Shown: positions 3,712-21,587, numbered from the stretch's first letter. The stretch: 64,000 nt of DNA from Candidatus Bathyarchaeia archaeon (GCA_038873195.1 JAVZEV010000001.1:896490-960489); one strand, 5' to 3'. A program made the numbers and translations. The notes: generated by a model not told the origin, from the sequence alone.

Positions 3712-4824
3712 TCACGAAAGCAAATGAACATTTCCCACACGCACATTCTTTAAATGTTTCTCAGCCGCCTCTTGACACTCCAAGGCTTGCTTTCTACTAG
3801 TAGTCGGCAAATCATCCATCACATAGCAAGGGTAAAACGCCAAAAGCGTGTAAGGAATACTCGCGTCTATTTCGCTTATGAACTTGGCAATACCCTCAAT
3901 TTCTTTCACATCCACGTAGCCCGGAACAAGAAGCGTACTCGCACCAAGCACCGGCAACTCCCTACGCTTCGCATAAAACTTCTCTCCAATCATCCGGAAA
4001 TTCTCAATCGTAGGCTTGTTCGAAACTCCACACAACGCAAGGCTTAACGGTTCACTCCAACACTTCAAATCAAACTTAATGTTACCACCACTCTCCAAGG
4101 CGATTTCTGCTGCTTTCTCCGCCAACCGAGGATTCATGTAACCATTCGTTTCCCAACAAACCCGCAAAATACGCTTCTCCGTTTTTGCCTTTTCCAACGC
4201 TATACGCGAGGTCTCAAGACTATGCGGCATTTGAGGCGACGGGTCACCACCAAAATAGCAAATACAAGAAACATGCGCATCCACTTTCGCCGCCAAATCC
4301 GCTGCATTCAAAACAGGCTCATGCTTAACAGACAAACGCCGATAATGCCAGTTCTGACAAAACAAACAATCGTAGCTGCAAGCGCCGTAAAAAACCGCCA
4401 AATTCGCATACCCAAACTCCGCAGTAGGCTTAAGCGCGTAACGCGGATAACCAGCGCCCGTGCAGCCTGGACAAAACCACCAACTCACGCAGTTCGTCGG
4501 CAAACCATCATAATACCACTCCAAAACACCCCGCTCAGCAGTGCCACCGTAACGCTCCAAACGTCCACCAACATTCCCTACAAGCCCACAAAACCCACGC
4601 TTACCATCGCCAATCACACACTCGTTCGCACATACGCCACAAGCCAAACCACCCGCATCACGCGGCGGCTCAGCAGGTAAACCAAACACACCGCAACTCT
4701 TTGCATGAACACTACGCGTTATCTCAAGCGCCTTCTCCGGTTTATCCCTAATACACCTTAAACAAACGCCTAAACCATCCGAAACCGTCTCGGCACTATA
4801 ACCACAAACAAGACATTTACCCAT
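3712..4824 (-). CDS. Radical SAM protein (pyruvate-formate-lyase-activase-like)
   Basis: 370 residues. The radical SAM cluster motif CSYDCLFC (C149, C153, C156) lies in an AmmeMemoRadiSam/PflA-like context (COG1180/COG1313). The N-terminus has a zinc-ribbon-like pair (CLVC at 4-7, CLRC at 21-24) and a second Cys group (CGVCANEC near 62-69, then RGFCG) that often accompanies this subfamily. It follows the MoaD-like gene by only 5 nt and so is probably co-transcribed with it, which hints at a cofactor or sulfur-transfer link. The actual substrate is unknown. Confidence 0.75.
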   Translation of the reverse strand: MGKCLVCGYSAETVSDGLGVCLRCIRDKPEKALEITRSVHAKSCGVFGLPAEPPRDAGGLACGVCANECVIGDGKRGFCGLVGNVGGRLERYGGTAERGVLEWYYDGLPTNCVSWWFCPGCTGAGYPRYALKPTAEFGYANLAVFYGACSYDCLFCQNWHYRRLSVKHEPVLNAADLAAKVDAHVSCICYFGGDPSPQMPHSLETSRIALEKAKTEKRILRVCWETNGYMNPRLAEKAAEIALESGGNIKFDLKCWSEPLSLALCGVSNKPTIENFRMIGEKFYAKRRELPVLGASTLLVPGYVDVKEIEGIAKFISEIDASIPYTLLAFYPCYVMDDLPTTSRKQALECQEAAEKHLKNVRVGNVHLLS

Positions 4825-4829
4825 AACCG

Positions 4830-5144
4830 TTAACCGCCGCCCACAGGCGGAACAATCGCCAAAACATCCCCATCTCTAAGAGGCGTGTCCAAACCATTAA
4901 GCGTTGACGCACTTCTTCCATTAACAAGAAACTGCAAGAAACCCTTCACTTCACCCGTCTTCCGGTCAAAAACGTAATCAACAAACTCCCGCCCATAACG
5001 CTTCGAAAGCCTCTCCAAAACCAAACCAATGGTAATCTTCTCCTTACCTGAAAACTCCAACGTCTCCTCTCGCTTGCCAGTCAACTCTCGCAGGCTAGTA
5101 AAGAACCGCACCGAAACACGCACTGCAACACTCACCAAAAACAC
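4830..5144 (-). CDS. MoaD/ThiS-family ubiquitin-like sulfur carrier
   Basis: 104 residues ending in Pro-Pro-Val-Gly-Gly-Gly, the di-Gly-type tail that an E1-like enzyme adenylates and thiocarboxylates in molybdopterin or tungstopterin synthesis. The beta-grasp pattern is visible (VRFFTSLRELTGKREETLEF, then LRDGDVLAIVPP). It is longer than a typical 80-90-residue MoaD because of an insertion around residues 60-75. It is first in a two-gene operon with the radical SAM protein and divergent from the thermosome gene. It may serve a pterin cofactor or act as an archaeal SAMP-type modifier. Confidence 0.8.
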   Translation of the reverse strand: MFLVSVAVRVSVRFFTSLRELTGKREETLEFSGKEKITIGLVLERLSKRYGREFVDYVFDRKTGEVKGFLQFLVNGRSASTLNGLDTPLRDGDVLAIVPPVGGG

Positions 5145-5208
5145 AAGAGCAAAGCCACAATTTTAACCCTTATGCATTCAATTATACAATCGCAACAAAC
5201 CAAAGTAA

Positions 5209-5221
5209 AAGTTTATATTTT
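5209..5221 (+). promoter_or_regulatory. TATA box of the thermosome gene
   Basis: AGTTTATATTTTT lies about 80 bp upstream of the thermosome ATG, in the 148-bp divergent region shared with the MoaD-like gene. With archaeal initiation about 25 bp downstream, the mRNA would carry a 5' leader of roughly 50 nt with the Shine-Dalgarno AAAGGTGAG before the ATG at 5293. Confidence 0.5.
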
Positions 5222-5292
5222 TGTGCCTTTTGCTTATTCCGAATTGGCAAAAAACTAACATTTTAACAATAAAGGTGAAAGGTGAGTTAAAA

Positions 5293-6936
5293 ATGGCATA
5301 CTTAACAACAACAGCATCTGGACAACCCGTACTCATACTAAAAGAAGGCACATCAAGAACCCGCGGACGCGAAGCCCAAAGAAACAACATAATGGCAGCC
5401 CGCGTAATCGGCGAAGTACTCAAAACCACGCTGGGACCACGAGGCATGGATAAAATGTTAATCGACAGCCTCGGCGACATAACAATAACCAACGACGGCG
5501 CAGCCATACTCAACGAAATAGAAGTCGAACACCCAGCAGCAAAAATGATGGTTGAAATCGCAAAAACACAAGACGACATGGTAGGCGACGGAACAACAAC
5601 CGCCGTAGTACTAGCCGGCGAACTACTCAAAAAAGCAGAAGAACTCCTAGACCAAAACATCCACCCAACAATAATCGTAAGCGGCTACCGCAAAGCAGCA
5701 AACAAAGCCGTAGAAATCATAAATAAAATCGCCACACCAGTAAACATCGAAGACCGCCAAACCCTCAAAAAAGTAGCATTAACCTCAATGGCAAGCAAAG
5801 CAGTAGGCACAGCACGCGAACACCTAGCAGAAATAGCCATAGACGCAGTCAAACAAATAGCAGAAAAACGCGGAGACCGCATGATAGCCGACATAGACAA
5901 CATCCAAATAATCAAAAAAACAGGCAAAAGCCTACTCGAATCACAACTAGTCCAAGGCTTAATAATCGACAAAGAAGTCGTCCACCCAGGCATGCCCAAA
6001 AAAATCGAAAAAGCCAAGATCGCCTTACTAGACTGCCCATTAGAAATTGAAAAAACAGAATTCAGCGCCGAAATACGCATACGAGACCCCAACCAAATGA
6101 AAGCCTTCCTAGACCAAGAAACCAAAATGCTCAAAGAAATGGTTGACAAAATCAAAGCCTCAGGCGCAAACGTGGTGTTCTGCCAAAAAGGCATAGATGA
6201 CATGGCACAGCATTTCCTAGCAAAAGAAGGAATACTCGCCGCCAGACGCGTAAAGCAATCAGACATGGAAAAACTTTCACGCGCAACAGGCGGACGCATA
6301 ATCACAGACTTAGCCGACTTAACAAAACAGGACTTTGGCGACGCAGGCGTAGTTGAAGAACGCAAAATCGGCGAAGACAAAATGATTTTCGTCGAAAAAT
6401 GTAAAGACCCGCGTTCTGTAGCCGTGCTAATCCGCGCAGGACTGGAAAGAATGGTTGACGAAGCCGAACGTGCAATGACAGACGCGTTATCAGTCGTGTC
6501 AGACGTGATAGAAAACAACAAAATCGTCGCAGGCGGAGGCGCAGTAGAAGTTGAAATAGCCAAAGAACTGCGAGACTACGCAACAAAAGTCGGCGGACGC
6601 GAACAACTTGCAATAGAAGCCTTCGCAGACGCCATAGAAGTAATACCGCGCACACTAGCCGAAAACGCTGGGTTAGAACCTATAGACATAATCGTTGAAC
6701 TACGCGCTGCACACGAGAAGACAGACGGGAAGCACATGGGCGTGAATGTTTTCACAGGCAAAACAGAAAACACCTACAACAACGGCGTAGTCGAACCACT
6801 AGTGGTTAAGGAACAAGCAGTCAAATCCGCCGCAGAATCCGCATCAATGATACTCCGCATAGACGACGTCATCGCCGCAACAAAACCAAAAGAAGAAAAA
6901 CCACCAAAAGGCGGAGAAACCGAAAGCGAAGAATAG
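5293..6936 (+). CDS. ths: Thermosome (group II chaperonin) subunit
   Basis: 547 residues. The ATG at 5293 is preferred over upstream in-frame codons because AAAGGTGAG precedes it and the protein then begins [19 protein letters not shown], as in archaeal thermosomes. ATP-site motifs are intact: [10 protein letters not shown], then NDGAAIL, then [15 protein letters not shown], and later [10 protein letters not shown]. It forms a double-ring chamber that folds cytosolic proteins using ATP. The C-terminus ends in an acidic Pro/Lys/Glu tail (GGETESEE) without the Gly-Gly-Met repeats of some homologues. A large antisense open frame across it is a codon-bias shadow. Confidence 0.97.
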
Positions 6937-6957
6937 CCCCCCTTTCTAATTTTTTCT
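6937..6957 (+). terminator. Pyrimidine-rich terminator after thermosome gene
   Basis: Directly after the stop codon the + strand reads six C, then TTTCTAATTTTTTC. A T-rich tract without a hairpin is the usual archaeal intrinsic termination signal. Confidence 0.4.
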
Positions 6958-7025
6958 CACTCCCAAAACCCCACGTTTTAATACACCAAAAATTTAAACA
7001 ACAAAACCATATTCTATTAGCGGAA

Positions 7026-7049
7026 GCTCCGGTAGTATAGTCCGGTCAA
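7026..7049 (+). repeat. Truncated copy of tRNA-Glu 5' end (candidate attL)
   Basis: The first 24 bases of the intact tRNA-Glu at 40362-40385 are reproduced exactly here, from base 1 of the acceptor stem through the D-loop. Similarity then stops abruptly: no anticodon stem or 3' half follows. An AAATTTAAAC TATA-like box lies about 30-40 bp upstream (near 6985-7000), as expected for a former tRNA promoter. Together with the integrase next to the intact tRNA, this looks like the left attachment site left when an element entered the 5' half of the tRNA gene. Confidence 0.65.
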
Positions 7050-7161
7050 ATCTATTAGAAGTTGTCGATTTCTCCCGCACCTTCCCCCTTTTTCTATTCT
7101 ATTGTTAAGGTGCCGTTAATTTGTTACCCCCGTAAGCACTTACACCCCATAAGTAAACAAC

Positions 7162-7187
7162 TTTCCGTTAACTGCAACTAACAGAGG
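7162..7187 (+). repeat. 26-bp inverted repeat, site A
   Basis: Arms TTTCCGTTA and TAACAGAGG flank the 8-bp spacer ACTGCAAC. It ends 83 nt before the TTG start of the C39-peptidase gene and 41 nt before its TATA box. It belongs to a seven-member family confined to 7.1-34.7 kb. Its role may be as an operator or as a recombinase site. Confidence 0.6.
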
Positions 7188-7227
7188 TTGGAAATAAAAG
7201 TTTGGTGTGAAGTTTTCTAAAGAGTAT

Positions 7228-7238
7228 CTTTTTATATC
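7228..7238 (+). promoter_or_regulatory. TATA box of the C39-peptidase gene
   Basis: CTTTTTATATC lies 43 nt before the TTG start. The box-to-start distance is the same as for the M14 carboxypeptidase gene at 12400, and both have a 26-bp inverted repeat 41-42 nt upstream of the box. Confidence 0.5.
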
Positions 7239-7270
7239 GGCTATTCCGAATTTCTTTTGGAGGAGGGTTA

Positions 7271-9931
7271 TTGTTAAAGTTTAGATTGAATCAATGGTTT
7301 ATTCTGATTTTGATTTGCGTATCTATTTTGCCTGCGTTCACTGTAAGTGTTTCAGACGCTCCAGCGGGTTTGCCTAACGTTGCAGAGGCTATTATTATTG
7401 CGGAAGGCCATTTTATCGATGTTCCATTTTATTATCAAGTGAAAACTTACTATTGCGGCCCAGCTGCTTTGCAAATGGTTTTTGATTATTTTGGTGAGAA
7501 TGTTTCTCAGTTTGAGATTGCTGATGTTGCGCGAACAGTGCCTTATGTGACTTATACTGATGAGCTTAGGAGGGCGGTCCATTTTAGTGATATGAGCACT
7601 TCTATGGGAAGCGAAATGCCAGAAAACATAACTGGATACTCAGCCAGAAAACTTGGATATGCAGCTTTTGAAATGTTCAGTATGACATTGGATGATTTGA
7701 AGGCTCTTATTGATAGGGATTTTCCAGTAATCTTGCTCATGAGGTGGATTCCGGGCGAATCTTATGGCCATTATAGGGTTGCTGTGGGCTATAATGCGAC
7801 GCATGTTTTCTTGCATGATCCGTGGAATAATGTCCTTTGGGGCGGAGACTATGGCGGTCCAAACCTACCTATGAATTACACATTCTTTAATGAGATGTGG
7901 GACTACTCTGGCCACTGGGGATTATTTGTTTCTCCATGGAACGTTAAAATTGAAACACCAAGCAATATTTACGTGGGCCAAACTTTTACTGTTACGGCAA
8001 CAGTTTTCTATGTTTGTCCCCTTCAAACTCCCATTTATGTTTATGAAGCCTCTTCATGCAATGCGACAATAACCTTACCAGAAGGATTAGCCCCCGCTGA
8101 TGGTGAATCACCAACTAAAACCCTCGGAGAAATTTACGCTGGTGGCAGTGCTCAAACTTCTTGGAGGGTTAAAGCTGAGCGTCCAGGAAACTATTCAATA
8201 ACAGTTGAGGCAGAAGGGAAGATTACAGGAATTGTTGGAGAAAAAGCTGGTGTTGGCCCAAGTTATCAATATGAGGATAGGATTGGAGGATACAGCTCGA
8301 GCTTTGTAAATGCGGAAGTTGCCTCGCACATCTACATCGACGCCATCAAACCAATTAAAGGCACCCCGGGAACAGAAGCCTTCATTTTCGGAGGGGGAGC
8401 CACTCCGAACGGGACGGTTGTTGCCTTGCTGAGCGGCCCAATAAATCAGACAATTGTTATTATAGATTCACAATCCACAAAAATCCAAGAAAACGTAACA
8501 ATTATAATCAACATGACTTTAGGGTGGACTGTAGCAGACTCCGATGGATTCTGGTCTATACCCTTCACTGTGCCTGAAGCGTCTCCAGGAGAATACGAAA
8601 TTTTTGTTTTAGATAACTTCACCCAAACAAGCGATGTAACCAAATTTTACGTATTACCGCCAACTCCTACCAAAATACGAATAGAAAATATTAGTCCAGT
8701 TGAAGGATACCCAGATACTCTAGTTTTCATAGCAGGACATGGAGCAACCCCAAAAGGTGAAGTCAAAATCTACTTTGACCATTTAAATGCCGCAAACACA
8801 ATAGCTTATGACGACGGAGGGTGGTCAACAACTTTTATCGTACCGGACGTTAGCCCTGGAAACTACACGATTCTGGCATTGGATGTCGCATCAAACACCT
8901 CTGACAACGTGATGTTCATAGTGCTGGAATTTGCTCAACGAAGCGTCGGAGTAAAAGAAGGCGACTGGGCAAAATATAACGTGATCTTCAACTATTCAAC
9001 AAATGATCCTACTATGCCAGTTCCTCCCCTCGCGGACATAGATTATTTATTAATAAGAATCGTTTCAGTTGTGAGAACTAATGTCACCTATGAGTCTATT
9101 GTGCGCTACAAAAATGGAACTGAACAAAAAGAAGTTTCGTGGCTGGACATAACTACAGGACTAACCTGCTATGGAGCCACAATGTCGTATGGACCAATCA
9201 TTGCAGCAAACCTAACAGCGGGCGATAAAGTATATTTCAATGATTACGCCCCAACAATAAACTTAACATCCGTAGCGTTCTACGCAGGTTTGCAAAGGGT
9301 GGTCAATTCTCTATTAATAAAAACAGATACAACCATTCCAGGCTATTATAGAACCGTTATGGACTTCGAAATTCACTGGGATAGGATAAGCGGCATATTA
9401 TGCGAACAAAAAATGAACGCCAGTTACACCAACATAGAGAAGGGCTACGAAACCAGCATGTTTCTCCAGATGGTCATAACAGAAACAAGCATTTGGATCA
9501 AACCAAGCATAATAAACGTCAAAGTTAGTTTCTGTCCACGCACGTTAAATTTGAAGAGCAGAGGCAAATGGATAATCTGTATTGTAAAACTTCCTAAAGG
9601 CTATACCGTGAAAGATGTCGACAAGTCAACAATTATGCTAAACGGCACCATCAAAGGCGAAGTTATCAACAAAGCTGAAAGAAGTCGCTATTTAATAGTT
9701 AGATTTGACAGAAAGGCCGTCATTGAACTCATCTCTAAAGAGATCATTTGCAAGAAGAAGTCCATGGAAGTATCGCTAACAATAACTGGCGAATTCAAAG
9801 ATGGAACAACATTCTCTGGAACAGCCACTATAAGAATAATAATACCGTCGAATAAAAACGCCAAAGAACACACTGCTTGCTTGTACTTCAAAAAACCACA
9901 TTTGCCACGAGATTCCGTTAACAGCGACTAA
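7271..9931 (+). CDS. Exported C39-type cysteine peptidase with Ig-like domains
   Basis: 886 residues, TTG start behind GGAGGAGGG. The signal sequence (residues ~8-25, FILILICVSILPAFTV) sends it out of the cell. A peptidase C39-like domain follows, with C62 (YYCGPAALQMVFDYFG), H167 (GHYRVAVGY) and D183 (HDPW) as the papain-like triad. Next comes a beta domain, then two related Ig/IPT-type repeats (IKPIKGTPGT... and ISPVEGYPDT..., about residues 350-555), and an unassigned C-terminal ~330 residues. No transmembrane anchor is visible at the C-terminus. The last codons, including the stop, lie inside inverted repeat site B. It is probably a surface or secreted protease; its substrate is unknown. 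Confidence 0.75.
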   Translation: MLKFRLNQWFILILICVSILPAFTVSVSDAPAGLPNVAEAIIIAEGHFIDVPFYYQVKTYYCGPAALQMVFDYFGENVSQFEIADVARTVPYVTYTDELRRAVHFSDMSTSMGSEMPENITGYSARKLGYAAFEMFSMTLDDLKALIDRDFPVILLMRWIPGESYGHYRVAVGYNATHVFLHDPWNNVLWGGDYGGPNLPMNYTFFNEMWDYSGHWGLFVSPWNVKIETPSNIYVGQTFTVTATVFYVCPLQTPIYVYEASSCNATITLPEGLAPADGESPTKTLGEIYAGGSAQTSWRVKAERPGNYSITVEAEGKITGIVGEKAGVGPSYQYEDRIGGYSSSFVNAEVASHIYIDAIKPIKGTPGTEAFIFGGGATPNGTVVALLSGPINQTIVIIDSQSTKIQENVTIIINMTLGWTVADSDGFWSIPFTVPEASPGEYEIFVLDNFTQTSDVTKFYVLPPTPTKIRIENISPVEGYPDTLVFIAGHGATPKGEVKIYFDHLNAANTIAYDDGGWSTTFIVPDVSPGNYTILALDVASNTSDNVMFIVLEFAQRSVGVKEGDWAKYNVIFNYSTNDPTMPVPPLADIDYLLIRIVSVVRTNVTYESIVRYKNGTEQKEVSWLDITTGLTCYGATMSYGPIIAANLTAGDKVYFNDYAPTINLTSVAFYAGLQRVVNSLLIKTDTTIPGYYRTVMDFEIHWDRISGILCEQKMNASYTNIEKGYETSMFLQMVITETSIWIKPSIINVKVSFCPRTLNLKSRGKWIICIVKLPKGYTVKDVDKSTIMLNGTIKGEVINKAERSRYLIVRFDRKAVIELISKEIICKKKSMEVSLTITGEFKDGTTFSGTATIRIIIPSNKNAKEHTACLYFKKPHLPRDSVNSD

Positions 9932-9937
9932 CAGAAA
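9912..9937 (+). repeat. 26-bp inverted repeat, site B
   Basis: Arms ATTCCGTTA and TAACAGAAA flank the spacer ACAGCGAC. The stop codon of the upstream peptidase gene is the first three bases of the right arm, and the left arm and spacer encode its last residues (Ser-Val-Asn-Ser-Asp). The site ends 89 nt before the next start codon, so it could also be a promoter element for that gene. Confidence 0.6.
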
Positions 9938-10026
9938 TATATGTCATTTCGTTAAGGGTGAATGTTATAGAGGATATTTCCAAAAAAATTATAGCTTTAG
10001 TGATTGCATTTTAGTTTTAATGTTTT

Positions 10027-11511
10027 ATGAATGGGGATGTTGGTTTGTGGCTTGGATGGTTTGCGGGTAAGGTTTCTTCTTGGTTTGTTAAGAGGCGTAG
10101 GGATTTGGTTGCCAAGAAGGTTAGGAGGGCTTTGCTTTCTATTCCCTTCTATAGAGAGAAGCTGAAGAAAAACTCTATTGGGCTTCATGAGGTTAAGGGG
10201 ATTAACACCATTGAGAAGCTTGACGTTTTCCTTCAAAAACACAAGATAGAATGGGTGAAAAGCGAAGACCTTATTGACGGAGATTTTTCCTCCCACTTAA
10301 GCCTTACACCTAAAAGCGAAAGAACTTGGGTTCAATATTCGTCTGGCTATACGTTAGTTGAGCGTTTAAGAAAAGGTGAAAAGTTTCTGGAGGCTGCAAG
10401 AAAGTTTAGAAGGAAAAAGGTGGCTTTTACAGAGAACGATTTAAAGCTTGTAATAAATGAAGCCTATAGTCGTGGCTTAGAAAGACTATTTCCAAACAAC
10501 ATTATACCAAGAATTGCAATTTTCTCGAGGTTTTATGTTTACGGGGGGTCTGGAACCTATCCGTTCGCAAGCCTTTTAAGAATATCCTGTAAGCGTCATG
10601 TCATAGTTTTTCCGTATAGTGAACCTTCAAGTAAAGAACAGCTTTGCGACTATGTTCTTGATTCAATCGAAAACGACACAAATGGTATAATCATTCCCCC
10701 ATCTACTCTTTGCGATGTAGGCGATTTTATGGTAGAGAATAACCTCAAATATCCAAATTTAAGGTATATAGGAACCGGTGGTTTTAAGGTTACAAAAGAG
10801 GCTGTGGAGTTAGGACATGAAATAGGTGCACAACTAATTATAAACGCATATAGCGTGCAAGAATGTATGCCTTTAGGCTGCATAGCCTCTGGAACCATTT
10901 CAAGCCTAGATAAGAGCTGGGAGCCTACTGAAGGTTTGATGGTTATGGGAAATCTCTGCCATGTTAGGGTGGTGGACAGGAATGGTGAAAACGTTGAGGA
11001 AGGCGAGGAAGGCGAAATAAGGATAACTTCCCCGTTTGAAGGAACAACCCTAATCGATTATGCTCCTGGAGATGTTACAAAACTATTAAGCTACAATAGC
11101 GCTGTTGAATTTAAAGGGTGGAGAATAAACCTGCCGTATGCGTTGCTTTCATACGATATTAAAAGGAGCCATGAAAGCTCTTATGTTAAAATAAGGGAGT
11201 ATCCCATGTCCCTGCCAATTTTGAATGAAATTCTCGCAACACACTGCAGCTATGACTATGCGATCTTTAAGCCTCAATTAAAAGATGAACTCATAATACT
11301 CGTTCCAGAAAGCATTAAAAAAAGCGACTTTGATGAAATATGCCAAAAAATTAGATACATCGCATATCCGCCAATTTACGATTTTGTAAGAGTGAAAAGG
11401 GTTAAAGAGGACAAATTAAGGAGAATAGTCTACTCGAACATTCACCATAAACCCCACAACATCATCCTCGAGCCTTCACGGCAGCTTGAGGAAGAAATCA
11501 ATGCGCTTTAG
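10027..11511 (+). CDS. Divergent adenylate-forming (PaaK-like ANL) protein
   Basis: 494 residues, ATG start. The order of elements matches phenylacetate-CoA-ligase-type ANL enzymes: a Ser-Ser-Gly P-loop-like patch (VQYSSGYTL), YIGTGGFKVTKEAVELG, YSVQECMPLG (the YGxTE-type motif), EGEEGEIRIT and APGDVTKL (the adenylate-binding Asp). Several positions are unusual, such as the reduced Thr/Gly-rich P-loop and the lack of an obvious C-terminal catalytic Lys, so activity may be altered. The next gene, a methyltransferase, overlaps it, implying a shared pathway such as activation and methylation of an acyl or aryl acid. Its position between repeat sites B and C is notable. Confidence 0.6.
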   Translation: MNGDVGLWLGWFAGKVSSWFVKRRRDLVAKKVRRALLSIPFYREKLKKNSIGLHEVKGINTIEKLDVFLQKHKIEWVKSEDLIDGDFSSHLSLTPKSERTWVQYSSGYTLVERLRKGEKFLEAARKFRRKKVAFTENDLKLVINEAYSRGLERLFPNNIIPRIAIFSRFYVYGGSGTYPFASLLRISCKRHVIVFPYSEPSSKEQLCDYVLDSIENDTNGIIIPPSTLCDVGDFMVENNLKYPNLRYIGTGGFKVTKEAVELGHEIGAQLIINAYSVQECMPLGCIASGTISSLDKSWEPTEGLMVMGNLCHVRVVDRNGENVEEGEEGEIRITSPFEGTTLIDYAPGDVTKLLSYNSAVEFKGWRINLPYALLSYDIKRSHESSYVKIREYPMSLPILNEILATHCSYDYAIFKPQLKDELIILVPESIKKSDFDEICQKIRYIAYPPIYDFVRVKRVKEDKLRRIVYSNIHHKPHNIILEPSRQLEEEINAL

Positions 11512-12217
11512 AACCGTTTTAAATGATTGGCTGTGGACGCTTTATCCCTTTTTCTATGATAGGATGCGCATTCTCCCCTCATACAGAGAGATGATGGAGA
11601 AAGTTGCTGAAAGCTTGTCTCCCAAAAAGAATAGCGTATACCTTGATTTGGGGTGTGGAACAGGCAACCTAATACAACTGCTCATATCAAAGGGCGCAAC
11701 CGTATACGGTTTAGATTCCTCATTTTCAGCATTAAAAGTGGCTTATGCAAAAATAAAAAAGCAAAAAACAAGTGGTTCTGCCAGAATTCACCTTTTTAAG
11801 TTCGTGGACAAGCTACCCCTCAAAGACGAATCTTTAGATGGGATTTCCGCTGTAAACTTCATCAATTACATAGAACCATCTTCCGTGCAAAACCTGATTT
11901 CAGAGGCGAAAAGGGTTTTAAAGAAGGGCGGTAGGCTAAGCCTCGTATACGTGCAAACGGTCGCCTACACAAAAGGAGTAAGCGACTACAAGCTGCTTAT
12001 AAAACAGAAACCGCTCCAAGCAATAACTTCAACACCATTCTACTTGGCTGTAGCCCTAATGAACCTCCCCATGAAACTAAAAACAAACATAATCCACTAC
12101 AAAAAAGAATACATCGAAAACCTCATGTCCAAAACAGGCTTCAAAAACATCAAAACAACCCCCACATACTACGGAAAAACAACCCTATTAACTACAGGAG
12201 AAAAACCTGCAGAATGA
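11501..12217 (+). CDS. Class I SAM-dependent methyltransferase
   Basis: 238 residues from the ATG at 11501, preceded by GAGGAAG. An upstream in-frame TTG at 11486 would only lengthen the overlap with the preceding gene. Motif I is DLGCGTGN (residues 49-56), the acidic end of strand 2 is YGLDSS, and VLKKGGRLSLVYV is the usual post-motif strand. It overlaps the ANL-like gene by 11 nt, so the two are translationally coupled. The substrate is unknown; a small molecule or lipid linked to the neighbouring ligase is a reasonable guess. Confidence 0.75.
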   Translation: MRFRTVLNDWLWTLYPFFYDRMRILPSYREMMEKVAESLSPKKNSVYLDLGCGTGNLIQLLISKGATVYGLDSSFSALKVAYAKIKKQKTSGSARIHLFKFVDKLPLKDESLDGISAVNFINYIEPSSVQNLISEAKRVLKKGGRLSLVYVQTVAYTKGVSDYKLLIKQKPLQAITSTPFYLAVALMNLPMKLKTNIIHYKKEYIENLMSKTGFKNIKTTPTYYGKTTLLTTGEKPAE

Positions 12218-12289
12218 AATAGGTAAAACGAAGGAAAGCTAAAAATTTTCGTAAAAGACAGCGGCAACAAACACCATCAAGGGTTAGGT

Positions 12290-12315
12290 TTTCTGTTAAC
12301 GATGACTAACAGAAA
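12290..12315 (+). repeat. 26-bp inverted repeat, site C (perfect arms)
   Basis: Arms TTTCTGTTA and TAACAGAAA are exact reverse complements around the spacer ACGATGAC. It is the best-formed member of the family. It ends 84 nt before the TTG start of the M14 carboxypeptidase gene and 42 nt before that gene's TATA-like box, nearly the same layout as site A. Confidence 0.7.
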
Positions 12316-12356
12316 ATAGTTGTTAGATAATAGTAATAGAGGATTTCTTCACAAGT

Positions 12357-12368
12357 CTTATTTTTTAG
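12357..12368 (+). promoter_or_regulatory. TATA-like box of the NosD/M14 gene
   Basis: CTTATTTTTTAG begins 43 nt before the TTG start codon, the same offset as the box at 7228. AGGAG precedes the start codon. Confidence 0.4.
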
Positions 12369-12399
12369 AACGTATTAAGCAGAGTAGGAGAATGATGGA

Positions 12400-15300
12400 T
12401 TGTTTAGGAAAACTGCTGCAGAAATATTGTTATTCCTTCTTTTGGCAAACATGTTGATGTTCGCATTCAAAATTGAACTGACTGAGGGTTGGACTGGAAC
12501 TGTTTATGTTAGGGCTGATGGGAGAATAGATCCAGCAGACGCTCCTATGTCAACCGTTGACAATGAAACTTATACTCTAAAAGATGACATCATCGGCAAT
12601 GCCAATGGAATTGTTATTGAACGGAATAACATTGTGGTTGATGGAGCAGGCTATGCCCTCGAGGGAACAGGAGCGTCTGATTCGAGAGGAGTAGACCTAA
12701 CTGGAAGAAACAACGTTACACTCAAGAACTTGACAATCAAACAATTCTCTTACGGCATCAATCTTGAGAACTCTAGCAACAATACCATTTCGGGCAACAA
12801 CATAACAAACAACAATGTTGGCGTTAGACTTTGCTATTCTTCAAACTACAACCTCATTTTTGGTAACAACATAACAAACAATAGCGATGTTGGCTTACTC
12901 TTGCAGATATCTGAAAACTATAATCAGATTTTCTACAATGAAATAAACGAAAACCGTTGGGGCATTTGGCTTTGGTATTCTTCATTCAACAATATCTGGG
13001 GTAACAATATCACGGCTAACGCGCGCGGTATAATCCTTTTCCATTATTCCTCCAACAACGCCTTATATATGAATCACATCGAGGACAATGTTCAATATGG
13101 GCTTTCGATTTCAAGCGATTGTGCCAGCAACACCATTTATCATAACAACTTTGTAAATAACACTTGTCAAATGTATAGTGGTGCAGTGAATAGGTGGGAT
13201 GATGGCTATCCAAGTGGCGGAAACTACTGGAGCAACTATAATGGCGTTGACTTATATAGTGGCCCATATCAGAATGAAACTGGAAGCGACGGAATAGGCG
13301 ATGAACCATACGTAATTGACGAGAACAACCAAGATCGCTATCCACTTATGAACCCTATTACTTTGTCTTTACCATGGCGTGATTGGACACATTACCACAG
13401 TTACAATGAACTTGTCAGCACCATTTTCCACTTATATATGACTTATCCAGAAATTGTAGATGCCTTTCCAATTGGAAAGAGTTGGCAGGGCCGAAGCATT
13501 TACTGCATCAAACTAACTAACGAAAGAATAACAAATCCGAAGCCCAAGTTACTATTCATAGGTTATCACCATGCCCGAGAACCCATAAGTGCAGAATTAC
13601 CATTATACTTTGCAGTAGACGCTGCTACAAATTTCGGCATAAATGAAACTATAACTCGCATGCTAAACTACAGCGAAATTTACATAATCCCAGCATTAAA
13701 TGTGGATGGCTTCGATGCCGTTAAATTAAATGAATGGCAACGTAAAAACGTCCACCCATACGACGAAGATGGAGATGGTCTACTTGACGAAGATCCACCA
13801 GATGACGAAGACGGAGACGGCTACATAGAAAACCTTTTCTTCCGAAATGAAACCCACTCTTGGTTCATTAGAGTGGAAGGATTCGACGATGATGGCGACG
13901 GCTTATATAACGAAGACTGGATTGGAGGAGTCGACCTAAACAGAAACTACAACTGGGATGAGTTCTATGCTCTTGGAAGCCCAAATCCCTGGGACGAAAC
14001 ATACAGAGGACCAGAACCCTTCTCAGAACCTGAAACACAAGCAATACGCGATTTCACGCTCCAACATTATTTTCAATATGCCATAAGTTTTCATTCTGGT
14101 GCTGCTTCGATAGGTTGCCCGGAAGGATATACTGAAGAAGAGAGTAGAAAATTTATTGAAATTGCAGCAAATCTTTCAGATCTTGTAGGAGTGCCATGGT
14201 ATTTTGCAGGTCAATTGGGGTTTCCAACAGGCTTCTGGGATGACTGGATATATCCCAACATAAGCAAATTCCCATTTACATGCGAAATTTACGGTAATGA
14301 AAGTGCTTGGCAATATGAGCCTGGCCCCGAACCTGACACATATTGGGAGAAAGGTATAACACAAGTCTTCAACCCAGAACCAACTCAAATAATGGCGGTA
14401 ATTGAACGATGGCTACCAGTTTTTACATACTTGGCAAACAGAGCAATAGTTGAAGCTTCAAAGGTTAGAAATAGCAACACACTCTTGGGCTACATGAGTA
14501 TACAGGAGGCAATAGATGCATCAGAAACCTTGGATGGACACACCATCATGGTCGGAGCTGGAACCTACTATGAGCACGTTACAGTAAACAAAGCCGTGTC
14601 ACTTGTCGGAGAAAATCCGGCAACTACAATTATTGACGGAGGAGGTTTCGGAACTGTTATAAATATAACAACATCCAATGTAAGCATAACAGGTTTCACG
14701 ATACGAAACGGTGGCGAGGGAGTTCTTGATGCTGGAATTTGCTTAGATAACGTAGATAATTGTAGCATTACCAGAAACTATATAACAGCGAACAACAACT
14801 TTGGGATCTTTATTTATAATTCCTATAACAGTATTGTTTCAGAGAATAACATAGCTGGCAATGACTGGTTTGGTATCGACCTGGAAGCATCCTCTAACAA
14901 CACTTTTTCAGGAAACATCTTCGTTGAAGATGGTTTGGTCATTTATAATTCCTATGGAAACATTGTAGCAGATAACCTTGTTAACGGAAAGCCTTTAGTT
15001 TATCTTGAGGGTGCTTCAAACATGACTGTTATCGACGCTGGGCAAGTTATACTTGTTAACTGCAATCACATAATAGTGGAAAATCTCAACTTATCAAACA
15101 CAGACATAGGAATACAGCTTTCAATGACAAATGATACAATAATAGCCAATAACATCATAACAAACAACAACATTGGCGTTCAATTCGAAGCTTCTTATAA
15201 TAACATAGTTTCGAAAAACAATATAGCAAATTACTTGGTAGGCTGCGCACTATTTAATTCAAAACAAAATACGGTTTCAGAAAACACTATAAAAGATAAT

Positions 15301-16335
15301 GGTGATGGAGTATTGTTGTATAATTCCTCGGACAATTTGTTTTACCACAATAATTTTGTAGATAACTTCGCACATGTGCGTTTATACGTGAATTCTTACA
15401 ACATTTGGGATTATGGTTATCCTTCTGGCGGAAACTATTGGAGTGATTATGGTGGAGTTGATTACTATAGTGGTGCATATCAAAACGAAACGGGCATGGA
15501 TGCCATTGGGGACAACCAATACTTCATTGATCCAAGTAATGCGGACAGATACCCGCTCATGAACACTTGGCCTACACATGATCTCGCAATAATCAATGTT
15601 GTTCCTTCTTCTTTAAGTGTGAAACGAGGAGACTATTTAACCATTAATGTGACGGTTATTAATCAAGGAGATTTTGTTGAGACCTTTAATCTAACAGTTT
15701 ATGCCAACACAACAGTTATCGGAACAGAAACGATAACAGATTTGCCCATCAGAACCTCAGCAACATTCTCTTTCACATGGAATACAGCAGGCTTTACCAC
15801 AAGCAACTACATCATCAGTGCTTATGCCACCCCAATTCAAGACGAAACTGATGCCGGAGACAACATCTATGTAGATGGAACAGTCACGATAGAAGAAATA
15901 GACGTAATACATGACATCGCTATATCAAACATTACATTTTCAAAGCAAAACCCCTCTGTCAACGAAACGATCTTCGTTTATGTAACAGTGGAAAACCGAG
16001 GCAACTTCACAGAAACCTTTGATGTAAGCCTCAACTATACTTTACTCTTTGACCCATTAATCGGAACAAAAACAGTAACCTTAGAACCCGGAGGACTCGT
16101 AACATTAAATTTCACGTGGACGCCGAATGCTACAGGTCGCTATGAAATAAAGGCCTACACAAATGAAATAACTGAAGACATAAACCCATCAGACAATACA
16201 AAAATAACCTATCTCTACGCTTCGGCAGCTTACACTTCAGACTTTTCTACAGAGGTAACTGATTGGCTATATATGAATCTGAGAAGCGTAAGATTTCGTT
16301 ACTTGGCGTATCCACTAACACTCCAAATTCTCTAA
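12400..16335 (+). CDS. Exported NosD / M14 carboxypeptidase / NosD / CARDB protein
   Basis: 1311 residues, TTG start with upstream AGGAG. The order is a signal sequence (~8-26), a NosD-type right-handed beta-helix (~70-320), an M14 zinc carboxypeptidase (~323-690), a second beta-helix (~697-1053) and two CARDB domains (~1060-1275). The M14 centre is intact: HHAREPISAE gives the HxxE pair, DLNRNYNW the substrate-binding Arg/Asn, HSGAAS the third zinc His, and CEIYGNE the catalytic Glu. Asp-rich loops (DEDGDG) near residue 450 may bind calcium. The C-terminus lacks the membrane anchor or sorting signal usual for such proteins and ends in a short basic stretch, so it may be truncated. It is probably a surface enzyme that trims peptides. 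Confidence 0.8.
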   Translation: MFRKTAAEILLFLLLANMLMFAFKIELTEGWTGTVYVRADGRIDPADAPMSTVDNETYTLKDDIIGNANGIVIERNNIVVDGAGYALEGTGASDSRGVDLTGRNNVTLKNLTIKQFSYGINLENSSNNTISGNNITNNNVGVRLCYSSNYNLIFGNNITNNSDVGLLLQISENYNQIFYNEINENRWGIWLWYSSFNNIWGNNITANARGIILFHYSSNNALYMNHIEDNVQYGLSISSDCASNTIYHNNFVNNTCQMYSGAVNRWDDGYPSGGNYWSNYNGVDLYSGPYQNETGSDGIGDEPYVIDENNQDRYPLMNPITLSLPWRDWTHYHSYNELVSTIFHLYMTYPEIVDAFPIGKSWQGRSIYCIKLTNERITNPKPKLLFIGYHHAREPISAELPLYFAVDAATNFGINETITRMLNYSEIYIIPALNVDGFDAVKLNEWQRKNVHPYDEDGDGLLDEDPPDDEDGDGYIENLFFRNETHSWFIRVEGFDDDGDGLYNEDWIGGVDLNRNYNWDEFYALGSPNPWDETYRGPEPFSEPETQAIRDFTLQHYFQYAISFHSGAASIGCPEGYTEEESRKFIEIAANLSDLVGVPWYFAGQLGFPTGFWDDWIYPNISKFPFTCEIYGNESAWQYEPGPEPDTYWEKGITQVFNPEPTQIMAVIERWLPVFTYLANRAIVEASKVRNSNTLLGYMSIQEAIDASETLDGHTIMVGAGTYYEHVTVNKAVSLVGENPATTIIDGGGFGTVINITTSNVSITGFTIRNGGEGVLDAGICLDNVDNCSITRNYITANNNFGIFIYNSYNSIVSENNIAGNDWFGIDLEASSNNTFSGNIFVEDGLVIYNSYGNIVADNLVNGKPLVYLEGASNMTVIDAGQVILVNCNHIIVENLNLSNTDIGIQLSMTNDTIIANNIITNNNIGVQFEASYNNIVSKNNIANYLVGCALFNSKQNTVSENTIKDNGDGVLLYNSSDNLFYHNNFVDNFAHVRLYVNSYNIWDYGYPSGGNYWSDYGGVDYYSGAYQNETGMDAIGDNQYFIDPSNADRYPLMNTWPTHDLAIINVVPSSLSVKRGDYLTINVTVINQGDFVETFNLTVYANTTVIGTETITDLPIRTSATFSFTWNTAGFTTSNYIISAYATPIQDETDAGDNIYVDGTVTIEEIDVIHDIAISNITFSKQNPSVNETIFVYVTVENRGNFTETFDVSLNYTLLFDPLIGTKTVTLEPGGLVTLNFTWTPNATGRYEIKAYTNEITEDINPSDNTKITYLYASAAYTSDFSTEVTDWLYMNLRSVRFRYLAYPLTLQIL

Positions 16336-16416
16336 ATTTGCGCTACTTTCATTCAATCGAGAAAAGATGAGCCTTTATTTGCACTAAACTAAAATATCTA
16401 TCTATTTCTGTCACTT

Positions 16417-16442
16417 TTTCTGTTAAGAGACACTAATAGAAA
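16417..16442 (+). repeat. 26-bp inverted repeat, site D
   Basis: Arms TTTCTGTTA and TAATAGAAA (one mismatch) flank the spacer AGAGACAC. It lies 82 nt after the stop of the M14 gene and between two convergent genes, so it is not placed as a promoter element there. Confidence 0.55.
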
Positions 16443-16504
16443 ACAGTTTATGCGACAAGATTCGGTGGTTTGTGGTAAATGGCGAATATCTTAAAATAGT
16501 ATGG

Positions 16505-17467
16505 TTAGAACTTGTAGAGGTTCCCAATGCTGTTCCAGACGTAGGATTCTGGCATTGCCTCAGCAATGGCGTGGTTTCCGCGCCAGCCCGTGCAGTGTGA
16601 AGACGCTACTAAATTGGGTTTTATTCTTTTCAGCTCTTTCACTGTTTGGCCAATGCGTGGTTCATATTCTTTTCCCGCTAGGTGGAATCCGCCTAATATG
16701 GCGTGGATGGTTTTTACCCTTGTGAGTTTTTGTGCGTAAAGTATAGTGTTTATTATGCCTGCATGGGCACATCCAGATACGATGACTAAGCCTTTATTCT
16801 TAACGCTGATTACTAGGGCGCGGTCATCCCATATCCACGGGTCAGACTGCCATTTGCCATCTATGAAGGCTCTGTGTTGAGGGTATCCCTTTTCGAAGCT
16901 TGTTGTTCTTGGGATTTCGCCTGTGACGAGTATGAGGTTGTCTGCTATTAGGTATGGTTGTTTGGTTTTGATGTATTTGGCTGGCTTCACCCTTTCTTCT
17001 TCCGGGAACGCGGGATATTCTCTTATGGTTCCGTTTGGGTTGGCTACGCCTCGCTTTTTGAACATGTCTTCATGCACTATTATTGGCAATTTATTCTTCT
17101 TAATAGCTTTGACTGCGGCGGGTAACCCGCCGAAATGGTCGTAATGTCCATGGGAGAGAACTATACATTCTATTTCCGACAGGTCTATTCCCATCCTTTT
17201 AGCGTTTGTTACAACGCCATTGGGACTGCAACCCGTGTCGAACAATATGCTGTGAACCCTGCCTTCATCAAAGACTCGGACAAGCATTGAAAATCCATGT
17301 TCGGCTATTGGAAGGCGAAAGTGTTTCTTAGTCCACTCCCTGACGCTTTTAACTTCACTTCTCTGGATCGTTGAAAGAATATCCACCGAATTATCCATTA
17401 AACTGATTATTTCCGCGCCTTCTGCTTCTTTGAGCTTCAAATCTGGTTTGTCATTGCCTTCGGTCAT
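16505..17467 (-). CDS. MBL-fold metallohydrolase (COG1237 type)
   Basis: 320 residues from the ATG at 17467, which has AAGGAGG nine bases upstream; a longer frame to 17551 would overlap the preceding gene. The metal-binding signature is SHGHYDHFGG (H106, H108, D110, H111). Later ligands are GCAHAG and GGFHLAG, plus SSHCTGW near the end. The family includes 7,8-dihydropterin-methyl-ribofuranosyl-aminobenzene phosphate synthase-like proteins and hydrolases of unknown substrate. It is the second gene of an operon behind the Cys-tailed Lrp regulator (14-nt gap). Cytosolic. Confidence 0.75.
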   Translation of the reverse strand: MTEGNDKPDLKLKEAEGAEIISLMDNSVDILSTIQRSEVKSVREWTKKHFRLPIAEHGFSMLVRVFDEGRVHSILFDTGCSPNGVVTNAKRMGIDLSEIECIVLSHGHYDHFGGLPAAVKAIKKNKLPIIVHEDMFKKRGVANPNGTIREYPAFPEEERVKPAKYIKTKQPYLIADNLILVTGEIPRTTSFEKGYPQHRAFIDGKWQSDPWIWDDRALVISVKNKGLVIVSGCAHAGIINTILYAQKLTRVKTIHAILGGFHLAGKEYEPRIGQTVKELKRIKPNLVASSHCTGWRGNHAIAEAMPESYVWNSIGNLYKF

Positions 17468-17481
17468 ACGGTTTAACCTCC

Positions 17482-18051
17482 TTAAAGGGTTCCCCTGTAA
17501 TGGATTGTTGCGGGGCATCCGACACATTTTCCGTCCGCATATCTTATGCATGGTCTACAGTCTACGTTGCATGGCGCGGTTTCCATTTCTTTGTGGGTTA
17601 AGTGTTCTCTTACTGGAAGGAACGGCGAAAAGTGAACCTCGCCTATGGGATAAAATTCTGATCTCCGTATGCCAGCGCTGCTTCTTAATGAGCATTTTTC
17701 TATGGATATGCTTTCGAGGGTGTCCTGGTTTTCCGCAACAACTAGGGCGATTAGGTTGTAGCCGCCTATAGTCTTAAAAATGTGAATTACTCTTGGGCAA
17801 TCTTTGAAACGTTCAAGCAGCTTTTGCATCGCCTCAGCGCTTTCCATTTCCAATAGAACCACAGCCGGAAAAAGTTTGAAAAAGAATGGGTTTATTGAAG
17901 CGGAAACTTTTATGGCGCCTTGTTGAACAAGCCGTTGCAGCCTTTTCTTTACTCCCATGCTTGTGAATCCAACATTTTTAGCGATGTCTTCCAAGGTGGT
18001 TCTTCCGTCCATTTGAAGCTGCGAAATTATCTTTCTGTCAACATCGTCCAA
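17482..18051 (-). CDS. Lrp/AsnC regulator with C-terminal cysteine cluster
   Basis: 189 residues. The N-terminal winged HTH (DRKIISQLQMDGRTTLEDIA, then an MGVKKRLQRL recognition helix) precedes an Lrp-type alpha-beta sensor region (~55-145). The unusual part is the tail: C161, C165, C168, C176 and C179 in the order CNVDCRPC...CVGC, a pattern fit for an Fe-S cluster or zinc. It sits divergently from Mrp and the hydrogenase genes with a palindrome between them, so it probably senses metal or redox state and regulates both directions. That regulatory role is inferred. Confidence 0.75.
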   Translation of the reverse strand: MDDVDRKIISQLQMDGRTTLEDIAKNVGFTSMGVKKRLQRLVQQGAIKVSASINPFFFKLFPAVVLLEMESAEAMQKLLERFKDCPRVIHIFKTIGGYNLIALVVAENQDTLESISIEKCSLRSSAGIRRSEFYPIGEVHFSPFLPVREHLTHKEMETAPCNVDCRPCIRYADGKCVGCPATIHYRGTL

Positions 18052-18092
18052 GGCTTGTTCCTCTGTTTATTTTCTAAACATAAAGTATTAAT

Positions 18093-18113
18093 ATAGTTTG
18101 CGCATCAAACTAT
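18093..18113. promoter_or_regulatory. Palindromic operator between Lrp-like and Mrp genes
   Basis: Perfect 8-bp arms ATAGTTTG and CAAACTAT surround CGCAT in the 123-bp divergent region. It abuts a TATA-like ATTAATATAG for the rightward Mrp-hydrogenase operon. The likely binder is the Cys-tailed Lrp-type protein encoded next to it. Confidence 0.5.
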
Positions 18114-18174
18114 TATTCACAAACAGATCGAGATAATCAATGGGTAAATAGCAAAAAAGCGAAGAGGAATTACC

Positions 18175-19110
18175 ATGAGCGCAGAGTGTGACGGCAAATG
18201 TGAATCTTGTTCAAAGAAGGGTGAATGCACAGACCCGCGAAAGGAAAGGTGGGAGGAGCAGCAGAGGCTAAAGCAGAGAATAAGCAGGATTAAGCATAAA
18301 ATAGCGGTTATAAGCGGCAAAGGCGGAGTTGGAAAAAGCACAGTAACTGTTAATCTTGCCATGGCTTTTGCAATGCACGGCTATGCAAACCGTGTAGGCA
18401 TTCTAGACGCTGACATTCATGGTCCAAGCATCCCAAAAATGCTTGGCTTAAGGGGGCAGAGGCTTCAAGCCCTTGCTGCTGGAGTAATTTTCCCAGTTGT
18501 TGGGCCTTTGGGAATAAAGGTTGTTTCCATGGACTTTCTGCTTCCGAGTGACGAGTCGCCAGTGATTTGGCGTGGACCCTTAAAAATGAGGGCTATTCAA
18601 CAGTTTTTGTCGGACATTACTTGGGGAGAGCTTGACTTCCTTCTTGTGGATCTGCCGCCAGGAACAGGTGACGAGCCGTTAAGCGTTGTGCAACTTATCC
18701 CGGACATGGACGGCGTGGTCATAGTCACTATACCATCAGAAGTTTCCCAGATCGTCGTGAAGAAGGCTGTGACATTCGCTAGGCAGTTGGGTGCTCCAGT
18801 GATTGGCATAATTGAAAACATGAGCGGTTTCACCTGCCCAAAATGCGGAGCAGAAATAAACATCTTCAAAACAGGAGGGGGAAGAAAAATAGCCGAGGAC
18901 CTGGCGGTTCCATTTTTGGGAAGCATACCAATAGATCCAGAGATCTGCACAGACTCAGACGAAGGCAAACCCTTCATAGTTGGGCATCCGGACTCGCCAG
19001 CCTCAAAAGCATTTACAGATATTGTTAAGAAAATTGAACATTATCTGGAGCAGAGAAAGCAGCTGGCAACCCCGCTTAAACAGGTGAAGCGTGAGGAGGC
19101 TGAGAAATGA
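18175..19110 (+). CDS. mrp: Mrp/NBP35-family Fe-S cluster carrier ATPase
   Basis: 311 residues, ATG start after AGAGGAATT. The deviant Walker A GKGGVGKST (~48-56), DADIHGPS and LVDLPPGTGD identify the Mrp/ApbC/NBP35 group. The bridging cluster Cys pair is C221-x2-C224 (FTCPKCG). A second Cys group at the N-terminus (C5, C9, C12, C18) matches NBP35-type proteins. It dimerises, binds a [4Fe-4S] cluster between subunits and passes it to apoproteins. It overlaps the hydrogenase gene by 4 nt, so hydrogenase or neighbouring Fe-S proteins are likely clients. Confidence 0.9.
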   Translation: MSAECDGKCESCSKKGECTDPRKERWEEQQRLKQRISRIKHKIAVISGKGGVGKSTVTVNLAMAFAMHGYANRVGILDADIHGPSIPKMLGLRGQRLQALAAGVIFPVVGPLGIKVVSMDFLLPSDESPVIWRGPLKMRAIQQFLSDITWGELDFLLVDLPPGTGDEPLSVVQLIPDMDGVVIVTIPSEVSQIVVKKAVTFARQLGAPVIGIIENMSGFTCPKCGAEINIFKTGGGRKIAEDLAVPFLGSIPIDPEICTDSDEGKPFIVGHPDSPASKAFTDIVKKIEHYLEQRKQLATPLKQVKREEAEK

Positions 19111-20561
19111 AAGAGATAACAATAAGCCCCATCACACGCCTTGAAGGGCATGGCAAAATATCCATTTTCCTTGATGAGACGGGAAATGTGGAGAACGCAT
19201 ATTTCCAAGTTCCAGAGCTGAGGGGTTTTGAGAAGTTTTGTGAGGGAAGAAAGGCTGAAGATATGCCTATTCTGACCAGTAGAATTTGTGGTGTCTGTCC
19301 TGTTGCGCATCACCTCGCATCTACAAAGGCTTTAGACGCCGCATTCAATGTTGAGCCGCCATCAGCGGCTAAAAAGCTTAGGGAGCTCATGTATTGTGGC
19401 TACATGATTTATGACCATACACTTCACTTCTACTTTTTAGGAGCGCCAGATTTTGTTGTTGGTCCAGACGCTTCGCCAGCCGAAAGGAACATTTTCGGAG
19501 TTATAAAGAAAGTAGGCTTAGATGTTGGAAGGGAGGTTATTAAACATAGGGCTTACGGGCAGAAAATAACGGAAATGATTGGAGGTAAGGCAACACACCC
19601 TGTTTGCGGGCTTCCAGGAGGAGTTTCTAAACCCATTTCAGAGGAGGAGCGCCAACAAATAGAGAAAATGGCTGAGTCATGCGTTGAATTCGCAAAACTT
19701 AGTTTGAAACTGTTTAATGAAGTTGTTCTAAAGAATAAGGATTACGTGGATATGATTTTGAGCGATGCCTACACTTTAAAGACTTATTATATGGGATTAG
19801 TTGACGAAAATAATAAGCTCAACTTTTATGATGGCAAAGTGCGGGTTGTTGATCCAGAAGGTAGAGAATTTGTAAGGTTTGCTCCACACGAATATTTGAA
19901 TGTGATTGAGGAACACGTTGAGCCTTGGAGCTACGTCAAGTTTCCATACTTAAAGAAGGTGGGCTGGAAGGGGTTTGTTGGAGGATCAGACAGCGGCATT
20001 TACCGTGTTGGACCGCTTGGAAGGCTTAATGTGGCTGACGGCATGGCAACATCCCTAGCTCAAGAAGAATATAAGAGAATGTTTGAGACGCTTGGTGAAA
20101 AACCTGTCCATTCAACCCTTGGGTTTCACCGGGCTAGGTTGATAGAACTGTTATACGCGGCTGAAAGATGTTTGGAGCTGAGCAGAGACAAGGAAATTAC
20201 AAGCAAAGATGTCCGAAACAAGCCTGGAAAACCTGGAGAAGGCGTTGGAATTATCGAGGCTGCAAGAGGCACCCTCATCCACCATTATGTTTTAGATGAA
20301 GAGGCCTTAGTTAAGGATGTTAATTTGATAGTAGCCACAACAAACAATAGCCCAGCAATATGCATTTCCATAAGAGATGCCGCCAAGGCCTTAATAAAAG
20401 GCGGGAAAGTAAGCGATGGACTATTAAACAGGGTGGAGATGGCTTTCAGAGCTTACGATCCCTGCCTTGCATGTGCAACCCACTATGCCATAGGGCAGAT
20501 GCCCCTTCAAATAAACATTTACAATCATGAAGGAAAACTGTTAAAAACCCTTGAAAGGTGA
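19107..20561 (+). CDS. [NiFe]-hydrogenase large subunit (group 3-like), orphan
   Basis: 484 residues. Both nickel-binding pairs are present: RICGVC (C61, C64) near the N-terminus and DPCLACATH (C453, C456) near the C-terminus. A 25-residue tail after His459 would be removed by a maturation endopeptidase during insertion of the NiFe(CN)2CO centre. The sequence resembles MvhA/group 3 cytosolic enzymes. No small subunit, Hyp maturation gene or protease lies in the window, and the next gene is not a recognised hydrogenase subunit. It may pair with subunits encoded elsewhere or do something other than H2 turnover. Confidence 0.85.
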   Translation: MKEITISPITRLEGHGKISIFLDETGNVENAYFQVPELRGFEKFCEGRKAEDMPILTSRICGVCPVAHHLASTKALDAAFNVEPPSAAKKLRELMYCGYMIYDHTLHFYFLGAPDFVVGPDASPAERNIFGVIKKVGLDVGREVIKHRAYGQKITEMIGGKATHPVCGLPGGVSKPISEEERQQIEKMAESCVEFAKLSLKLFNEVVLKNKDYVDMILSDAYTLKTYYMGLVDENNKLNFYDGKVRVVDPEGREFVRFAPHEYLNVIEEHVEPWSYVKFPYLKKVGWKGFVGGSDSGIYRVGPLGRLNVADGMATSLAQEEYKRMFETLGEKPVHSTLGFHRARLIELLYAAERCLELSRDKEITSKDVRNKPGKPGEGVGIIEAARGTLIHHYVLDEEALVKDVNLIVATTNNSPAICISIRDAAKALIKGGKVSDGLLNRVEMAFRAYDPCLACATHYAIGQMPLQINIYNHEGKLLKTLER

Positions 20562-20565
20562 GTAA

Positions 20566-21099: not shown

Positions 21100-21117
21100 T
21101 CAATGAGAGGATGTTAA

Positions 21118-21525: not shown

Positions 21526-21587
21526 AAAACGCAGATGACAAAGAGCTTGAGAGGTTGAGGCGGAAAAAGCTTGAAAAATTGTTATAA
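21513..21587 (+). CDS. Possible 24-residue leader-like small ORF
   Basis: A GTG-initiated frame of 24 codons overlaps the end of the NifX-like gene and has a charged helical character (DDKELERLRRKKLEKLL). It ends 27 nt before the next gene. It might be a real micro-protein or only a by-product of the reading frame; there is no strong ribosome binding site. Confidence 0.2.
   Translation: MGAIENADDKELERLRRKKLEKLL

Follow-up and report, generated by a model that had tools for sequence, protein, structure and literature searches.

We analyzed a 64,000-nucleotide (nt) stretch of the genome of a Candidatus Bathyarchaeia archaeon (GCA_038873195.1; JAVZEV010000001.1:896490-960489), hereafter the window, which corresponds to C1:896490-960489 in a genome of 1.63 Mb in two contigs, C1 and C2 (numbers preceded by C, G and L denote contigs, genomes and loci, respectively). 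The window contains an integrative element whose genes are divided into cassettes by six short palindromic sites, A, B, C, D, E and G. Comparison of these sequences with other loci and genomes indicates that the element likely takes part in natural recombinase-mediated cassette exchange, in which mutually incompatible Xer/dif-like sites would allow each cassette to be traded at its own position.

Each site is an imperfect 28-bp palindrome of two 11-nt arms around a 6-nt core. A single consensus, approximately YTAACAGAAAN when read outward from the core, is common to both arms, and the core is different at each of the six sites. When the window was searched for TTCTGTTAA-N7-TAACAGAA with up to three mismatches, 11 strand matches were found at six places, compared with 0.60 expected from shuffled sequence (maximum, 3); the exact pattern with TTAA on both sides had no match in the genome. 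Repeats A to D at 7.1 to 16.4 kb had been described in an earlier, sequence-only reading of this DNA, and their matches lie far above the shuffle expectation. That reading also bordered a NosD gene (31.7 to 34.3 kb) with repeats. Sites E and G are indeed present, but the additional site "F" at the right border of this gene was not recognizable: we found there only a half-site that resembles the right arm of E, at ~34532, where similarity to two other loci resumes, so that this module lacks a clean right-hand site.

The same cores recur well beyond the window. Arm-only searches located ~20 sites in this genome, and all of the strong ones carry one of the six cores. A series on C2 (B-C-D-E-G) keeps the order of the window with different spacing, and other loci of this genome, as well as at least seven other genera, show the same cores in the same order; arm-only searches of relatives likewise returned these cores from other genera within the family. 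The DNA fetched around sites and recombinase genes amounted to 921 kb and contained 146 strong sites, with an exact core of one of the six types in 114 and a one-base difference in a further 17, whereas the seven hits in shuffled DNA were all at least three mismatches from any of the six cores. Regions were chosen mostly by arm-only hits, which favor no core; those from L066 to L081 were fetched by the D-core pattern, and five of them duplicate other stretches. Invariance of the core within a type is by construction of the set, while the sites were found by their arms alone and few strong sites have other cores. Among multi-site loci (at least two exact sites), the order A-B-C-D-E-G is kept in 27 of 29, the strand of the core matches the direction of the array at 75 of 76 sites, and a type is repeated within just one of the 29 loci (12.1 expected), with both copies on the same strand; these order figures are descriptive, as loci from one clade are not independent of one another.

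When 84,980 species were scanned for a D pattern, 16 matches were obtained, 15 of them labeled archaeal and mostly Bathyarchaeota; for ~10 of these 15, the stretch that was fetched, or a longer version of it, includes a further site of the series. The bacterial match (L066, Psychroflexus) has no further site and was taken as chance. In IMG/VR, the D pattern was without a match, two C-pattern matches were judged to be chance, and three B-pattern matches have both arms, one of them with a C site nearby. Low-scoring calls with other cores that lie over a real site (e.g., TTTCTG at L067:4707) were treated as scan artifacts. One locus labeled Baldrarchaeota (L070, JAEOSG010000237.1) has a D site together with near-B and near-E sites; the contig may be misbinned, or the system may extend past Bathyarchaeota. 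We advance tentatively, as a proposal nearly as plausible as its contrary, that the elements of Bathyarchaeota follow a family-wide standard, an ordered set of at least six incompatible cores that is constant across genera and permits any two elements to trade the cassette at one address while keeping all others.

To see whether modules are gained, lost or shuffled with breakpoints inside the repeats was the check proposed by the sequence-only reading, and we ran it across loci and genera. Modules recur as units, their neighbors are unrelated, and the breakpoints fall within the repeats, which supports exchange of modules at these sites. Cassette A-B of the window and its counterpart in another genus (G030:C15, L082) are 92.2% identical over 2779 bp; the similarity ends in A and in B, and the flanks are unrelated, while the remaining DNA aligned between the two genomes is mostly 68 to 77% identical. 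The two arrays form a mosaic in which A-B and part of D-E are common and B-C and C-D differ. Other cassettes are shared elsewhere: C-D blocks recur in this genome at C2:164.4 kb and C1:474.8 kb (92.6%), G016 and G028 have a C-D block in common (84.2%), G030 and G008 have a B-C block in common (88.8%), and the B-C stretch at window positions 11544 to 12317 is 92.8% identical to C2, with similarity stopping within site C. For alignments of at least 150 bp, 19 ends lie in sites on both sequences, compared with 0.014 expected from shifted controls (maximum, 1 in 1000), and just one alignment passes through a site, at G, in the element backbone. Of 10 pairs of homologous cassette genes, 7 occupy the same interval, compared with a mean of 2.3 under permutation; a count of 7 was reached in 2 of 2000 shuffles. 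Several of the relatives are fragmented metagenome assemblies; misassembly is an unlikely source of the shared cassettes because these are 82 to 97% identical, rather than identical, in separately assembled genomes. At one further locus (L033, C1:470441-479306), a lone C-D cassette has chromosomal flanks that resemble the outer array flanks in G030 (L082) and G008 (L087), which suggests a reduced remnant at a shared locus.

The position of the switch bears on whether ordinary homologous recombination between elements could account for these patterns, with the sites merely conserved islands between diverged cassettes. Of the 26 same-type pairs with similar flanks, 23 have similarity confined to one side, and the arm on that side matches better than the other (1.4 to 1.7 mismatches versus 2.3 to 2.8). 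Together, one-sided similarity and a better-matched shared-side arm thus place the switch at the core. Backbone stretches common to the elements (E-G, primase and integrase) could support ordinary recombination; however, of 1008 same-type pairs, 982 have unrelated flanks past the 28-bp sites, and a 28-bp stretch offers this process very little homology. Homologous recombination also fits poorly with switches at the core and arms that follow their own flank, and we consider it improbable.

We propose instead that these are tyrosine-recombinase (Xer/dif-like) core sites placed at cassette junctions. One recombinase would bind the arms, and strand exchange would need a matching core; between two elements in one cell, A would pair with A and B with B, but A would not pair with B. 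Two crossovers, or cointegrate formation at one site followed by resolution at a different one, could then swap the cassette at the same position while keeping its neighbors. Recombination between identical cores only would account for the fixed order, for the near absence of repeated types and for the one-sided similarity. Exchange at the sites, as the earlier reading had it, is therefore upheld in a narrower form: the sites do not appear interchangeable, and exchange is seen at matching cores.

Some observations weigh against this reading, at least in its strict form, and we infer exchange from sequence comparison. A cassette located in B-C in G030 and G008 is placed between D and C in G023, and the sequence to the left of A in L111 is similar to that on the left of C in L093. 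In G030:C15, the C core is inverted; in L111, the sites run D-E-A; and in L094, two B sites lie 10 kb from each other. The A and G positions also have more variable cores than positions B to E. These exceptions, which reflect either occasional exchange between mismatched cores or decay, make a strict matching rule less secure.

A different history, in which each cassette arrived separately, either as a circular molecule inserted at a site, as in integrons, or by way of a site-targeting transposon, draws on the lone C-D cassette at C1:474.8 kb and on the NosD module, which lies at the E core in the window, while only 119 bp (C2) and 95 bp (C1:16.4 kb) separate E from G at two other loci. A cassette inserted at a site would be bordered on either side by the same core, whereas the cassettes here end in two different cores and have a fixed order. 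Repetition of a core type in 1 of 29 arrays and the distance of the window integrase from integron-integrase cut-offs (TIGR02249; 62 bits versus 265) argue further against it. Separate insertion may apply to the E-side NosD module, but as a general explanation we find it very unlikely. No less unlikely is that the palindromes serve an element regulator as operators or other transcription signals, kept while the elements diverged, with modules that differ by divergence and insertion: although the sites are palindromic and mostly intergenic, and A, B and C lie 82 to 88 bp upstream of an open reading frame (ORF) start in the window, an ORF starts within 300 nt downstream at just 31 of 101 sites (a divergent one at 37), and operators would predict neither per-position conservation of the non-arm core across genera nor breaks in similarity within sites.

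If exchange is catalyzed at the cores, the acting enzyme is probably a tyrosine recombinase, and the candidates are the Xer-like family RecIII or an integrase from among the elements that acts in trans. Three recombinase families flank the arrays. IntI is found at the right end by a tRNA, as in this window; RecII is found at the left end by a tRNA with site A adjoining, and because several elements have it in this place beside a tRNA, it appears to be a second tRNA integrase. In several genera, RecIII lies close to sites, B and C among them (G008, G016, G019, G028, G030 and G032), and its best match of solved structure is XerA of P. abyssi (4a8e, E 0.0011), with a score far under the NF040815 cut-off; an AlphaFold model of RecIII made without an alignment was too poor for use, with a predicted local distance difference test (pLDDT) score of 36.6. 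The IntI attachment core in tRNA-Glu is unlike the sites. Each candidate has points against it. IntI does not track site number, and many genomes carry it without an excess of sites. In RecIII, Ser replaces the first catalytic Arg of XerA; this family is often broken (most copies other than the intact one in Table 1 have stops or frameshifts) and is not in this genome. For XerA itself, nothing above the NF040815 cut-off was found in this genome or in 40 relatives. Strong sites with the non-type cores CACTTC (L094:5615, the same as G016:C10:25615), CACCTC (L102:10337, the same as G028:C69:19337) and GCACAA (L076:7798) lie immediately upstream of RecIII genes or fragments, and may mark an additional address or a site that belongs to the recombinase itself.

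The carrier of the array was delimited by comparison with a genome of the same genus, G001, which has an empty site. Window flanks 3712 to 7049 and 40362 to 47405 are contiguous there with a 24-bp overlap; thus, the DNA between them in the window is an integrative element. It has the hallmarks of elements that target tRNA genes, namely, an integrase beside the tRNA, a direct repeat of part of the tRNA and an empty site in a relative. The left end is marked by a 5' fragment of tRNA-Glu, and integration regenerates the full tRNA at the right end. A conserved 171-amino-acid (aa) protein adjoins site G at three loci in this genome; it matched no Pfam, NCBIfam or PHROG family and is a possible accessory factor.

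The three modules between A and D, with the C39 peptidase, the ANL ligase plus methyltransferase, and the NosD/M14/CARDB genes, are as the sequence-only reading described them, and the series goes beyond D to add D-E and E-G (Table 1). Its suggestion that these are exchangeable surface-protein modules holds for the exchange at the repeats but not for the cargo, which is not mainly surface proteins and also includes methyltransferases, the ligase (for which the Pfam match is slightly under the cut-off) and redox genes. The genes of D-E encode a metallo-beta-lactamase-fold protein, an AsnC regulator, Mrp-type ATPases, a NiFe-hydrogenase-like protein, FeMo-Co-type proteins, a radical SAM protein and an ABC transporter. 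The stop codon of the A-B gene is the TAA of the right arm of site B, and the gene ends within that site. On C2, ~15 tandem copies of a ~76-bp repeat, roughly 70 to 80% alike, begin 15 bp from a B site (L018:13496-14689).

Table 1. Sites, cassettes and element features (positions are those of the window unless a locus or contig is given)
Feature	Position	Strand	Details
Site A	7161-7188	+	Core CTGCAA
Site B	9911-9938	+	Core CAGCGA
Site C	12289-12316	+	Core CGATGA
Site D	16416-16443	+	Core GAGACA; pattern also scanned species-wide
Site E	31547-31574	+	Core TAACGT; left arm weak
Site G	34665-34692	+	Core CGTGAA; identical 28-bp site at C1:16549 and C2:161265, both flanks homologous
Cassette A-B	7189-9910	+	C39-peptidase-domain protein, 886 aa (ORF 7271-9931)
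Cassette B-C	9939-12288	+	AMP-ligase-like protein (10027-11511) and methyltransferase (11486-12217)
Cassette C-D	12317-16415	+	NosD/beta-helix, M14 peptidase, CARDB protein (12400-16335)
Cassette D-E	16444-31546		Partly homologous to D-adjoining DNA in G030
E-G module	31575-34664	-	NosD/beta-helix protein (31686-34268); right border half-site ~34532
Integrative element, 33.3 kb	7050-40361	+	Holds all sites A-G and cassettes
Left attachment repeat	7026-7049	+	Copy of first 24 bp of tRNA-Glu; 100% identical to 40362-40385
tRNA-Glu (CTC)	40362-40437	+	Integration target and right attachment site (ARAGORN; empty-site comparison)
171-aa conserved protein adjoining G	34882-35397	+	78% identical copy at C2; fragment at C1:16.9 kb
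Primase/helicase, P4/D5 type	36399-39065	+	Pfam D5_N and DUF5906; TIGR01613 203.6 bits, above cut-off
Tyrosine integrase IntI	39068-40345	+	N-terminal zinc ribbon; Pfam PF00589; aligned catalytic R, K, HxxR, GH and Y present
RecIII, intact copy	L091:6532-7500 (G008:C9:184532-185497)

In laboratory recombinase-mediated cassette exchange with heterospecific lox or FRT sites, two incompatible end cores allow a cassette to be replaced but not excised; here the exchange is apparently natural, with up to six successive cores per element. Shufflons and other invertible DNA have same-core sites in opposite orientation, and we found none, as the single repeated type (1 of 29 arrays) is on the same strand. 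The closest known system is the dif modules of Acinetobacter plasmids (pdif, XerC/XerD), in which 28-bp 11-6-11 sites lie at the junctions of modules common to several plasmids (PMC13141974, PMC6449649). There, sites whose 6-bp cores are identical or nearly so have been shown to recombine, and exchange of a single module via a cointegrate and its resolution has been proposed (PMC13141974). The archaeal sites have the same geometry and position, and their modules, too, are common to several replicons with switches within sites. In Acinetobacter, however, site orientation alternates, the XerC and XerD arms differ, and modules are shuffled and excised, whereas the archaeal cores nearly all point in one direction and the arms are nearly symmetric, without distinct XerC and XerD arms. 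The archaeal system further differs in its position-specific cores, in an order fixed over several genera, in its archaeal host and in its tRNA-integrated carrier.

Archaeal and bacterial dif sites have 11-6-11 geometry (PMC2958812). The present sites are alike in this respect, but dif occurs as about one site per chromosome, in contrast to the ~20 sites in mobile elements here; neither a XerA orthologue in the genome nor a single site per chromosome, as expected of XerA/dif, was found. Integrons have been reported in archaeal metagenome-assembled genomes (PMC9668308), and they resemble the present arrays in that gene cassettes are split by sites of (here, putatively) tyrosine-recombinase type. 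Integron attC cassettes, though, share a single kind of site and can enter at attI in any order, whereas here the two ends of a cassette differ and the order is fixed; the window sites are double-strand palindromes of 28 bp, with two different cores per cassette.

Modular exchange by site-specific recombination is already known in bacteria, from integrons and dif modules. In the open-access literature, we found no prior report of a fixed series of different, incompatible cores common to several genera. If our proposal is true, it would explain gene trading by an uncultured, widespread class of archaea, and cargo cassettes could be delimited in Bathyarchaeota genomes from sequence. It could also yield a recombinase together with a naturally matched, orthogonal set of sites.

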